Translations under genes and position numbers: made by a program
DNA from: Rhodococcus sp. Z13
Lineage (GTDB): Bacteria; Actinomycetota; Actinomycetes; Mycobacteriales; Mycobacteriaceae
Direction: 5' to 3'
Assembly: GCF_025837095.1 (NCBI RefSeq)
Contig: NZ_CP107551.1
Coordinates: forward strand, 2,028,352-2,092,351
DNA: 64,000 nt
Part shown: one piece after another, positions 256-30,913 of the stretch
Layout: every line of letters begins with the position of its first letter
How positions within the stretch are numbered: the first letter of the stretch is position 1
The notes under the pieces: generated by a model
Seen by the model: only the letters and a program-made list of their open reading frames with translations
The model's database searches: none
What the model was told of the DNA's origin: nothing

Positions 256-1158
<903 letters not shown>

Positions 1159-27303: not shown

Positions 27304-28317
27304 TCAGGATGCAGCACCGCCGAGCGGGAGGAGGCGGGCGAGCACGTCGGACAACGTGATCAATCCGACGATCCGGCCCTCCGAGGTGACCGTCACGAGA
27401 TGGGTGCGGGTCTCCCGCATCGTGGTCAGGGCCTCGTAGACCGGTGTCGCGGCGTCGATCGTCAACGCCGGGCGCATCAGTTCCGCGGCTGTGACACCGG
27501 GCTCGGCGTTCAGGCTGTCGCGCACGTGCACGACCCCGTCCACAGTCCCGTTCTTGCGCACCAGCAGTCGCAGATGACCGGTGCGGTACGCGGTCTCCCG
27601 GATCTCCTCGGCGGTCGCCGCGGGGCGCACACTGCTCGGATCCGCCCGGGGCACGACGATGTCGCCGAGGGTCAGCGCCTCGAGTTCCAATGCGCTGCTC
27701 AGATGCCCGTGATAGCGCTCGTCGAGGGTGCCCACCGTCGCCGAGTGTTCGACGAGATGCCGGAGGGCGGCCGGATCCTGACCGGTGGCCAGCTGATCGA
27801 CCGGGTCGACGCCCAGTTTCCGCAGGCAACGGTTGGCCATGTGGTTCAGGCGCACGATCACCGGGCGGGTGACCCACATGAATCCGCGCATCGGCAGTGC
27901 CAGCAGGGTCGCGGACCGCTCCGGGTGCGCGATCGCCCACGACTTGGGTGCCATCTCACCGACCACCAGGTGTAGGAAGGTGACGATCAGCAGGGCGAGG
28001 ACGAAGCCGGCGACGTCCGCCAGCCACAGGGGAGCTCCCCAGTTCTCGAACAGCGGGGTGAGCCAATGGTGCACGGCGGGTTTCGCGGTCGCGCCGAGCG
28101 CCAGTGTGCACACGGTGATGCCGAGCTGCGAACCGGCCAGGAGCACGGACAGTTCCGACGCGCTGCGCAACGCCGCCCGTGCCGAGCGGTTGGTGGCCGC
28201 GGCATCCTCGAGCCGGTGACGCCGGGCGGCGATCAGCGCGAACTCGACCGCGACGAAGAAGGCGCAGGCGGCGATCAGGACGATCGTCACCGCCGCGACG
28301 ACCCAGGGGTTACTCAT
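27304..28317 (-). CDS. CNNM/CBS-domain membrane protein
   Basis: A 337-residue CNNM (DUF21)-type membrane protein: hydrophobic segments in the first about 150 residues including VAVEFALIAARRHRLE and GSQLGITVCTLALG, then a CBS domain pair (about 205-330). It lacks the C-terminal CorC/HlyC domain that its upstream neighbour has. The family (MpfA, CorB/CorC) is linked to magnesium export or resistance. It overlaps the upstream gene by 8 bp, so both are made from one transcript, perhaps as a heteromer. Confidence 0.88.
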   Translation of the reverse strand: MSNPWVVAAVTIVLIAACAFFVAVEFALIAARRHRLEDAAATNRSARAALRSASELSVLLAGSQLGITVCTLALGATAKPAVHHWLTPLFENWGAPLWLADVAGFVLALLIVTFLHLVVGEMAPKSWAIAHPERSATLLALPMRGFMWVTRPVIVRLNHMANRCLRKLGVDPVDQLATGQDPAALRHLVEHSATVGTLDERYHGHLSSALELEALTLGDIVVPRADPSSVRPAATAEEIRETAYRTGHLRLLVRKNGTVDGVVHVRDSLNAEPGVTAAELMRPALTIDAATPVYEALTTMRETRTHLVTVTSEGRIVGLITLSDVLARLLPLGGAAS

Positions 28318-29677
28318 CGTCGGCCGCCTCCTCGGTCAGAAGCGTCACGTGCAGTGAGGACGGCACGTGCTTGTCGATCGCGCGGACCTCGGCCACGAGC
28401 ACACGCCGCAGCGGCCGGTGTCCGAGCGCGAGGTCGGCGGGGTCGGGGTCGAGCGTCACGCGAACCGTCTCACCGACTTCGGGGAAGCCTCCGAACTCGG
28501 TGACCACGAGCCCGGCGAGGGTTTCGTAGTCGCCGTCGGGCAGGTCGTGATCGATGGTGCGGCCCACCTCGTCGAGGTGGACGTCGCCGCGGATCAGCCA
28601 GCCCTCGCCCTCGGGGCGGACGACCTCGGTGTCCATGGCCGGGTCGTGCTCGTCGGCGATCTCCCCGACCAGTTCCTCGGCGATGTCCTCGACGGTGACG
28701 ACACCGGCGAAGCCGCCGTATTCGTCGATCACCAGGGCCATCTCCTCGTGGGCGTCCGCCAGGGCGTTCAGCACGTCGGGCAGCGCCAGCGTCGCCGGGA
28801 CGATGACCGGCGGCCGGCAGGCCGTCGCCGCGGTGCCCTCGGTGCTGTCGAGTCCGAGCAGATCGTGCAGGTGCACGACACCGCGCAGGTCGTCGGAGGA
28901 AGTGCCCACCACGGGGTAGCGGGTGTGGCCCGTGCTCATCCGGTCGAGGATGCCCGCCACCGGCTCGTCGAGTTCGACGACGTCCACGCGGGAGCGGGGG
29001 ATCATCGCGTGTTCCGCCGTGCGTGTGGGGAAGTCGAGGATGCGGTCGAGCAACGTGGACAGGTCTGCCGGCAGTTCACCGGCCTCCCGCGACGCCGCGA
29101 CGATGTGTTCGAGGTCCCGTGGGGTTGCGGAGTGCTCGACGTCGTGGACCGGCTCGATGCGCAGCGCGCGCAGCAGCAGGTTCGAGGAGGCGTCGAACAG
29201 CCGGATCAGCCAGCCGAAGAGAGTGAGATACCAGGTCGTCGACAACGCCAGACGGCGGGCGACCGGTTCGGGCCGGGCGATGGCCAGGTTCTTGGGGACC
29301 AGTTCGCCGAAGACCATCTGCACGACGGTCGAGAACAGCACGGCCAGCACCGTGCCGACGGCGACGCCGACGGAGGTGGGGATGCCGACGCCACCGAGCA
29401 GTTCGCCGAGGCCGCTGCCGATCAGGGGTTCGGCGACGTAGCCGACGAGCAGGCCGGTGACGGTGATGCCCAGCTGGGCACCGGAGAGCATGAACGAGGT
29501 GCGGCGGGTGATGGACAGGGCGCGGCGTGCGCCGCTGTCACCGCCTTCTGCTCGGGCCTGGAGGCGGGAGCGGTCCACCGCCATGTATGCGAACTCCTGG
29601 GCCACGAAGTAGCCGGTCAGCGCGGTGATGGCGAGGACGACGAGAATGCCGAGCCCGATTCCGAGGGCGGTCAGCAC
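28310..29677 (-). CDS. CNNM/CBS/CorC-domain membrane protein
   Basis: A 455-residue protein with a full set of domains: CNNM transmembrane domain (VAQEFAYMAVDRSRL, SGAQLGITVTGLLVGY), two CBS motifs, and the CorC/HlyC C-terminal domain (LVIDEYGGFAGVVTVEDI, then LIRGDVHLDEV). Members are magnesium/cobalt transporters or resistance proteins. The GTG start has a pyrimidine-rich upstream region with no ribosome site, but the N-terminus matches the family. First gene of a pair with 27304-28317. Confidence 0.88.
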   Translation of the reverse strand: MLTALGIGLGILVVLAITALTGYFVAQEFAYMAVDRSRLQARAEGGDSGARRALSITRRTSFMLSGAQLGITVTGLLVGYVAEPLIGSGLGELLGGVGIPTSVGVAVGTVLAVLFSTVVQMVFGELVPKNLAIARPEPVARRLALSTTWYLTLFGWLIRLFDASSNLLLRALRIEPVHDVEHSATPRDLEHIVAASREAGELPADLSTLLDRILDFPTRTAEHAMIPRSRVDVVELDEPVAGILDRMSTGHTRYPVVGTSSDDLRGVVHLHDLLGLDSTEGTAATACRPPVIVPATLALPDVLNALADAHEEMALVIDEYGGFAGVVTVEDIAEELVGEIADEHDPAMDTEVVRPEGEGWLIRGDVHLDEVGRTIDHDLPDGDYETLAGLVVTEFGGFPEVGETVRVTLDPDPADLALGHRPLRRVLVAEVRAIDKHVPSSLHVTLLTEEAADDE

Positions 29678-29806: not shown

Positions 29807-30032
29807 CGGGATTCCCGGGAGGTTCCGTTCCCAGGAGGTTCACAGGATAGGACGAACGGTGTCCGGACGAAGTTCCCACCGGCTCACGAATCCGGGGCTC
29901 CATCGGGTAACGGCGCCGTTATCGAAGATGCGCCTAATCGATATCTTTCCTTCGCGCAAGATTTCGAAGTGTGAAGCATCCCACAGCGCTGGGGAATGCA
30001 CTTGGTCGGAATCCGGGTAACAATGATTGCGC

Positions 30033-30065
30033 GTGACGCACTGGTCGTCACAACTCCGTTATAAG
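30033..30065 (+). promoter_or_regulatory. Promoter region of the small acidic peptide gene
   Basis: TATAAG at 30060-30065 is a good -10 element, 28 bp before the ATG. An inverted repeat GTGACG-N7-CGTCAC (30033-30051) covers the expected -35 and could be an operator. No consensus -35 is seen. Confidence 0.45.
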
Positions 30066-30092
30066 CACCCACCCCCTCGAATGGAGACACAC

Positions 30093-30242
30093 ATGGACAT
30101 CGGCGGCCTCATCGACGCTCTGGACTTCTTTGCCGACTTCTTCGGCTACGCCACCGACCTCTTCTCGGCGATCAGCTTCTTCGCCGGTTCGGCCGACGCT
30201 GCCACCGAGGTCTTCGGACCCTCGGGCTCGGCCATCGGCTGA
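30093..30242 (+). CDS. Small acidic amphipathic peptide, porin-like (PorA/PorH type)
   Basis: A 49-residue protein with six Asp, one Glu, no Lys or Arg, and eight Phe. It has no signal peptide. Residues 2-32 read as an amphipathic helix in which Phe/Leu/Ile alternate with Asp (DALDFFADFFGYATDLFSA), followed by a short flexible tail ending GPSGSAIG. Size, charge and helix pattern resemble the mycolic-membrane channel peptides PorA and PorH of corynebacteria, which also lack signal peptides. I cannot show homology. ATG 30093 has GGAG at 30083-30086; ATG 30081 in frame is less likely. It is monocistronic with a strong terminator (30309-30339), suggesting high expression. Confidence 0.65.
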   Translation: MDIGGLIDALDFFADFFGYATDLFSAISFFAGSADAATEVFGPSGSAIG

Positions 30243-30308
30243 GACTTCCGGTAACGACTCGGGTGACGGACTCCTTGCGGGTCCGCTGCGCTGGAGTGTG
30301 ACGACCGG

Positions 30309-30339
30309 ACGGCCCGCGGGGTGCATCCCCGCGGGCCGT
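30309..30339 (+). terminator. Strong intrinsic terminator after the small peptide gene
   Basis: A perfect 13-bp GC-rich stem (30309-30321 with 30327-30339), loop TGCAT, followed by TTGT. It isolates the small gene from the DUF4383 gene downstream. Confidence 0.88.
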
Positions 30340-30364: not shown

Positions 30365-30392
30365 ACGTTTGTCCCGTGACGTTTGTCCCGTA
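30365..30392 (+). repeat. 14-bp direct repeat carrying GTTT boxes
   Basis: ACGTTTGTCCCGTG (30365-30378) and ACGTTTGTCCCGTA (30379-30392) abut and differ in one base. The second provides the -35 of the promoter below. Confidence 0.8.
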
Positions 30393-30405
30393 AGGACCGG
30401 GGCTA
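30381..30405 (+). promoter_or_regulatory. SigB/SigF-like promoter upstream of the DUF4383 gene
   Basis: GTTT (30381-30384), a 15-bp spacer, then GGGCTA (30400-30405). This fits the actinobacterial general-stress consensus GTTT-N15-17-GGG(T/C)A roughly, 44 bp before the ATG. Confidence 0.5.
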
Positions 30406-30448
30406 TCCGCTCCTCGACAGTCGAACGTTCGACGAGAGGACGCGCGTC

Positions 30449-30913
30449 ATGACCACCCCATCCTCGCCCGCCCGGAGCTCGATGACCGCGACGCCGGTGC
30501 AGACCGCCGCGCTCGTCGTCGGTGCGGTCTTCCTGCTCGTGGGCATCCTCGGGTTCATCCCCGGCATCACCTCCGACTACGACCAGCTGTCCGGTGCCGG
30601 CCACCATTCCGGTGCCATGCTGCTGGGACTCTTCCAGGTCTCCGTCCTGCACAACATCGTCCACCTGCTGTTCGGCGTCGCCGGGCTGGCCGCGGCCCGT
30701 GCCGTCGCAACCGCCCGCACCTTCCTGATCGCCGGTGGCGTGATCTACCTGGTGCTGTGGATCTACGGGCTGATCATCGACAAGGACAGCGGCGCCAACT
30801 TCGTCCCGCTCAACACCGCGGACGACTGGCTGCACTTCGTCCTCGGCCTCGGCATGATCGCGCTCGGTTTCCTGCTCACGCGCACCCGGCCCGCAGCCGG
30901 GACCATCCGATAG
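30449..30913 (+). CDS. DUF4383 membrane protein
   Basis: A 154-residue four-helix membrane protein of the DUF4383 type: AALVVGAVFLLVGILGFIPG, a middle pair of helices around LHNIVHLLFGVAGLAAAR, and DDWLHFVLGLGMIALGFLL. HNIVHLLFG is typical of the family. The function is unknown; such genes are often stress-induced in actinobacteria. ATG 30449 has GAGAGGA at 30434-30440. A SigB/SigF-like promoter is at 30381-30405. Confidence 0.85.
   Translation: MTTPSSPARSSMTATPVQTAALVVGAVFLLVGILGFIPGITSDYDQLSGAGHHSGAMLLGLFQVSVLHNIVHLLFGVAGLAAARAVATARTFLIAGGVIYLVLWIYGLIIDKDSGANFVPLNTADDWLHFVLGLGMIALGFLLTRTRPAAGTIR

Follow-up and report, generated by a model that had tools for sequence, protein, structure and literature searches.

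A short gene in the window, by which we mean the whole stretch of 64,000 nucleotides from Rhodococcus sp. Z13 that was analyzed, is a real and conserved gene beyond a chance ORF. It encodes an acidic, Phe-rich peptide whose family and the small pore proteins of Corynebacterium are probably related, and we consider the gene a plausible representative of a broader group of PorH-like genes that occur outside Corynebacterium. Our best reading, which we hold to be somewhat likelier right than wrong, is that the peptide is a shortened PorH-like mycomembrane helix, probably a subunit of an oligomeric channel or of the envelope.

The window gene encodes an acidic peptide with a predicted amphipathic helix

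As stated in the original prediction, translation of the ORF gave 49 residues with eight Phe, no basic residue (no Lys, Arg, or His), and a net charge of about -7, which results from six Asp and one Glu. The peptide, MDIGGLIDALDFFADFFGYATDLFSAISFFAGSADAATEVFGPSGSAIG, starts at Met (ATG at position 30093) and, as judged by eye from its sequence and charge, is acidic and without a signal sequence. The prediction of one long amphipathic helix was likewise supported, since AlphaFold2 modeled a single helix over residues 3 to 41 (mean pLDDT of 81.6, 16-row alignment) and only 0.3% of shuffles of the peptide's own sequence equaled the maximum hydrophobic moment that it attains at 100 degrees (P = 0.003). 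The start codon is backed by the predicted ribosome-binding site, which aligns with the sites of relatives.

The gene is located between CNNM and DUF4383 genes (Table 1), and the four neighbors that were scanned correspond to two CNNM membrane proteins, one DUF4383 protein, and one short-chain dehydrogenase. It appears to be single, as no partner ORF was apparent by eye in the surrounding ORF list. The window gene is also the one convincing profile match in its own genome; a second match (L050, E value of 0.11) was rejected for its lack of a start codon.

Table 1. Positions of the window gene, of its neighbors, and of presumed signals (numbered from the first nucleotide of the window)
Feature	Position	Strand	Basis or remark
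Two adjacent CNNM/CBS membrane protein genes	27307-29677	-	Divergent from the peptide gene
TAACAAT, presumed -10 element	30018-30024	+	Inferred from upstream alignment; within the genus-conserved GGTAACAAT block
Inverted repeat GTGACG..CGTCAC, presumed 5'-end hairpin of the mRNA	30033-30051	+	Read from the sequence
Ribosome-binding site GGAG	30083-30086	+	Sequence; aligns with similar sites of relatives
Gene for 49-aa acidic Phe-rich peptide (PorH-like family)	30093-30242	+	ORF 30093-30239, stop TGA 30240-30242
13-bp perfect terminator-like hairpin	30309-30339	+	Folding; arms 30309-30321 and 30327-30339
DUF4383 protein gene	30383-30913	+	Follows the peptide gene

The peptide family is conserved in the genus and extends to related genera

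Of the 18 genus genomes, 17, the source genome included, gave matches at an E value of 1 or better in a single-sequence search, some of them weak (E values up to 0.12). A 15-row profile (A2) recovered the same 17 genomes at E values of 7.4e-14 or better, a partly circular result, since the profile derives from those same genus loci and its scores within the genus are no independent test. G016, the only genome without a match, has the CNNM neighbor gene and no such peptide at that locus. Loci L018 and L019 of the genus search were dropped as members, as they sit inside long ORFs.

Beyond the genus, scanning a named collection yielded 18 loci, in Rhodococcus species, Prescottella, Rhodococcoides, and Speluncibacter, and the profile also found relatives in a Dietzia-like genus and in other Rhodococcus-named lineages. 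At an E value of 0.1 or better, 93 of 401 genomes of the GTDB family matched, and the weak matches of this search, often within long ORFs, were not counted as family members. A class-wide search at an E value of 0.01, in a sample of 394 genomes (138 genera) that includes few rhodococci, matched only the source genome and one other of the same GTDB family. Thus, conservation in relatives, the lack of which the original prediction had named as a reason to abandon it, was found in the genus and in other genera, and the homologs of fewer than 60 residues that it proposed to look for exist in several genera, with lengths of 25 to 53 aa (72 peptides, near-identical ones included). Sixty-four of these 72, a count that includes near-duplicates, have neither Lys nor Arg, and amphipathicity was significant in 50 (P < 0.05) and not significant in 22.

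The family is under purifying selection, with dN lower than dS in 52/52 pairs of close relatives, the window gene lying outside those pairs. We rejected a chance ORF because of this result and the conservation in the genus. Five loci (the window, R. ruber, R. zopfii, R. phenolicus, and R. sp. HM1) have two neighbor genes in common, located ∼4 kb downstream in the window, one of which we take to be aspS. The CNNM genes of the window are common to four other loci (L135, L136, L137, and L139). We found no description of this family in Rhodococcus in the titles and abstract openings of the open-license PMC papers that our searches returned.

Signals surrounding the gene

An inverted repeat had been predicted in the promoter region. 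The repeat exists, but its position downstream of TAACAAT indicates that the mRNA probably carries it at the 5' end, outside the promoter. TAACAAT was found in 16 of 17 aligned upstream sequences, including that of the window (L010 is without it), and a consensus scan listed no sigma-70 promoter at the window gene. MtrA, considered as a regulator on the basis of its motif, was set aside, the literature search being unhelpful and the GGTAACAAT block fitting a -10 element better. Near the same place as the inverted repeat, a stem of at least 5 pairs recurs with varying sequence in 16/16 folded sequences (L010 of the 17 was omitted), yet its energy is unremarkable (mean z score of only -0.85 over the 16 sequences, and -1.04 for the 5' untranslated region of the window), and we did not retain it as a conserved element.

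Downstream of the gene, the hairpin predicted as a 13-bp intrinsic terminator has perfect pairing and a folding energy of -31.5 kcal/mol (z score of -5.6, equaled by 0/200 shuffles); its T-tail is weak and it is absent from the pattern-scan list. A GC hairpin also lies 3' of the gene in the genus relatives that were inspected by eye. Rfam, at gathering scores, identified no known RNA element in the window. Upstream of the presumed -35 element, the longer paralogs of Prescottella type (L072, L083, L089, and L090) carry GGTAACCTTCNTCACA-like boxes, unlike the window genus, the L072 version being GGTTACCTACGTCACA.

Porin models match the family below their cutoffs

The original prediction held that normal annotation would overlook the gene, and indeed the window peptide matched no Pfam and no NCBIfam model at an E value of 10. 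The absence of a Pfam match also led us to reject an MspA-type protein (PF09203 domain), and no porH_2 match was obtained in the source genome. Pfam returned nothing for 30 family members at an E value of 1, and nothing for the PorA and PorH proteins of C. glutamicum themselves at an E value of 0.01. When the same 30 members were searched against 18,950 NCBIfam models at an E value of 1, six matched PorACj, five PorH, and one PorA, and nothing else was matched. All these matches are below the curated cutoffs, the best being to PorACj at an E value of 0.012; for example, L035 scored 14.7 bits versus a cutoff of 30, whereas the C. glutamicum PorH control scored 39.5 bits versus a cutoff of 30. 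As a control, 60 reversed or shuffled family peptides gave no porin match and one match to a RiPP model. At an E value of 10, two of three short relatives matched PorACj (E values of 0.31 and 4), with an additional DnaJ match at 2.4 for one of the two, and the third matched nothing. Four GroEL2-linked peptides of the Dietzia-like genus matched no porin model at this threshold; three had no match, and the fourth matched a secretion-protein model at 0.12, presumably by chance. The window gene stands outside formal PorH/PorA membership by cutoff, by locus, and by partner. The prediction of a Rhodococcus-type small porin is partly supported; it is favored by the subthreshold porin matches and by the GroEL2-linked relatives, and falls short at the curated cutoffs. 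The Dietzia-like peptides without a porin match and the MspA-type porin of the source genome also speak against it.

Tandem pairs at the GroEL2 locus suggest a link between the family and PorH

Fourteen genomes with matches to the family profile belong to the Dietzia-like genus, so labeled from its gene content. There, the peptide genes adjoin GroEL2 in 9/9 fetched loci and PPK2 was seen in none, GroEL and PPK2 being names that we presume from the sequences. In the four extended loci, a gene for a secreted protein comes after two or three tandem pairs, and the one such protein that was scanned has a PF00756 domain; mycoloyltransferases are members of the PF00756 fold family. None of 79 other family stretches, a count that includes 18 refetched ones and the spurious L050, is near GroEL2 or PPK2. 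In the source genome, a 433-aa ORF comes after GroEL2, and our filter returned no short acidic ORF there; this filter showed short peptide ORFs in one of seven Corynebacterium-type GroEL2 loci (L118). Among 30 PorA loci of Corynebacterium, GroEL2 was seen in 23, and the start of PPK2 within 1.5 kb in 2. We presume that the genus is Corynebacterium from a match of 100% to PorA of C. glutamicum and from PorA and PorH lengths of 45 and 57 aa, which are in agreement with a published report (PMC12632848). In Corynebacterium, porH-porA are described between GroEL2 and PPK2 (PMC3792995, PMC5944148).

We compared profiles with hhalign. Over match columns, the family aligned with Dietzia-like gene 1 at a probability of 96 and with gene 2 at 93, gene 1 aligned with PorH (19 sequences, 54 to 81 aa) at 47, and the family aligned with PorH at 28; the corresponding values over all columns were 94, 92, 60, and 17. 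Over match columns, each of the four comparisons exceeded 150/150 column permutations, which preserve composition and not every feature of amphipathic helices, and also exceeded the reversed profile; the family-PorH score of 19.1 is just over the permutation maximum of 18.1. For the family versus PorA, 5/150 permutations were as good and the reversed profile scored higher, and a direct relationship to PorA by profile was rejected on these permutations. Versus PorA, 13/150 permutations were as good both for Dietzia-like gene 2 and for PorH itself, and none of these three comparisons with PorA is significant. At the level of sequence, the link of the family appears to be to PorH and not to PorA. 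The family is strongly similar to the Dietzia-like pair, and the pair in turn shares the GroEL2 locus with PorH, which gene 1 resembles moderately; these steps form the chain that leads to PorH.

Other short ORFs and secreted proteins were observed in these genomes. Locus L121 of the Dietzia-like genus (positions 779-931, minus strand) and also L122 to L124 encode a further signal-less peptide of 46 to 50 aa that ends in TALKSVLGNLS or TALRQVLGNLS, and in 4/4 loci the gene just downstream is one that we take to be lpd; the peptide is possibly another envelope peptide. In L107, from a large-genome Rhodococcus-type bacterium, a very short ORF lies ∼930 to 1,050 bases after GroEL2 and encodes 39 aa if read from a GTG and 24 aa if read from a Met inside it (MSTIITSLLDALTTLIGFLGSVEG). 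In five rhodococcal loci (L098, L104, L110, L112, and L114), the gene after GroEL2 encodes a secreted protein with a mycoloyltransferase-like start, and in another, L102, GroEL2 precedes a PPK2-like start. Because of these starts, the GroEL2 neighborhood may be an old envelope locus.

Proposed role and alternatives

The peptide could belong to the same family and be a structural or anchoring peptide of the mycomembrane, like ProtX, that forms no pore, the channels being MspA-type proteins. We regard this as unlikely, though not so unlikely as to be neglected, for MspA-type genes are present in all 18 genus genomes, members of 25 to 31 aa are below the 37 aa of PorACur, the shortest channel former reported (PMC5944148), and PorH and ProtX are both reported to be linked to the cell wall (PMC12632848); however, peptides encoded at the GroEL2 locus of corynebacteria reportedly form channels (PMC3792995, PMC5944148), and the amphipathic face fits a channel. 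A helix of the cytoplasm or inner membrane, for example, a lipid-droplet, membrane-curvature, or regulatory small protein with a convergent likeness to PorH, is a poor prospect in our estimation. Through the Dietzia-like pairs, the family is connected with the GroEL2 locus, and in the four extended loci these pairs lie upstream of a secreted protein (PF00756 in the one scanned); moreover, the 30 members matched porin models only and the class search found nothing beyond the GTDB family of the source genome. These points outweigh for us the absence of a signal peptide, the weak similarity of the family to PorH, the Dietzia-like peptides that match no porin model, and the two CNNM, DUF4383, and short-chain dehydrogenase neighbors, all of which would suit such a helix.

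A secreted surface-active or signaling peptide, or the precursor of an antimicrobial peptide, would also be small and amphipathic, with its own terminator and no apparent partner gene. We find this very improbable, as 0/4 scanned neighbors is a modification or peptide-export gene, basic residues are absent, and the gene is kept near the same genes in five loci of the genus.

We return to the PorH-like mycomembrane helix, for which we infer export, location, modification, oligomeric state, and pore by analogy with the PorH-PorA model, in which five copies of each are hydrophobic outside and hydrophilic inside, with mycoloylated serines as a girdle (PMC12632848). The window peptide would represent a family of mycolic-acid bacteria that has had no name until now and that shares its ancestry with corynebacterial PorH. 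It would cross the inner membrane, most likely by the PorA/PorH route without a signal sequence, insert in the mycomembrane, and perhaps undergo O-mycoloylation at a serine in either the GSA or the C-terminal SGS stretch. Several copies would then assemble into a small channel or an envelope anchor, their Phe/Leu faces lying in the mycolate layer and their Asp/Glu faces turned inward. Ser15, which is mycoloylated in PorA of C. glutamicum, is within LDVL-S-GSG, a context deduced from a primer (PMC5310785), and the family consensus ALDFF-S-GSA is close to it; the window has AGSA, in which Ala replaces the first serine of SGS, and several relatives have Thr there. This likeness in serine context is suggestive only, and two studies report no strict motif for mycoloylation (PMC5310785, PMC11066868).

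The source genome contains one MspA-type match, separate from the peptide gene, and nine PF00756 matches, so that it also encodes a different type of channel and has candidate mycoloyltransferases. MspA-type porins occur in 18/18 genus genomes, including G016, from which the peptide is absent. More tentatively, and with rather less than even confidence, we propose that PorH-derived helices of ∼25 to 50 residues form a second class of mycomembrane pore beside MspA-type porins in Rhodococcus, Prescottella, Rhodococcoides, and relatives. If so, its subunits would include some below the smallest reported pore former (37 aa), and the PorH/PorA system would be older than Corynebacterium and widespread in nonmycobacterial mycolata. 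In the literature, to the extent covered by our sources, accounts of small helical porins come from Corynebacterium and rhodococci are described with MspA-type channels; a conserved family of still shorter, PorH-related helices across rhodococcal genera would revise the view of nutrient and drug passage across the mycomembrane. The family would also offer minimal model peptides for signal-less export and protein mycoloylation and identify genes overlooked by family-based annotation.

Comparison with known systems

The beta-barrel porins MspA, NfpA, and PorARc, which are mycomembrane channels of rhodococci (PMC9233653), are proteins of about 20 kDa, unlike the 49-aa window peptide, which fits the size range of ∼40 to 60 aa of PorH/PorA-type porins (PMC4827864). 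PorA of Corynebacterium (TC 1.B.34) resembles the family in length, acidity, and the LDxxSGS-type context at Ser15 but differs in that its profile similarity to the family is inside the range of column permutations. PorACj of C. jeikeium (40 aa) and PorACur of C. urealyticum (37 aa) are one-peptide channels and, like the window peptide, tiny, and the C. jeikeium porin is also without a tandem partner; PorACj is the model most often matched by the family (always below the cutoff), and, unlike the window gene, the genes of both are between GroEL2 and PPK2 (PMC3792995, PMC5944148). PorH of Corynebacterium (TC 1.B.59) is longer (54 to 81 aa in 19 sequences versus 25 to 53 aa in the family) and adjoins GroEL2 as the Dietzia-like relatives do, whereas the window gene stands alone and away from GroEL2. 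Like the family, PorH is small, signal-less, acidic, and formed of a single helix; it has MDLS or MDLA starts, as do many relatives, some of which end in LS or LSS.
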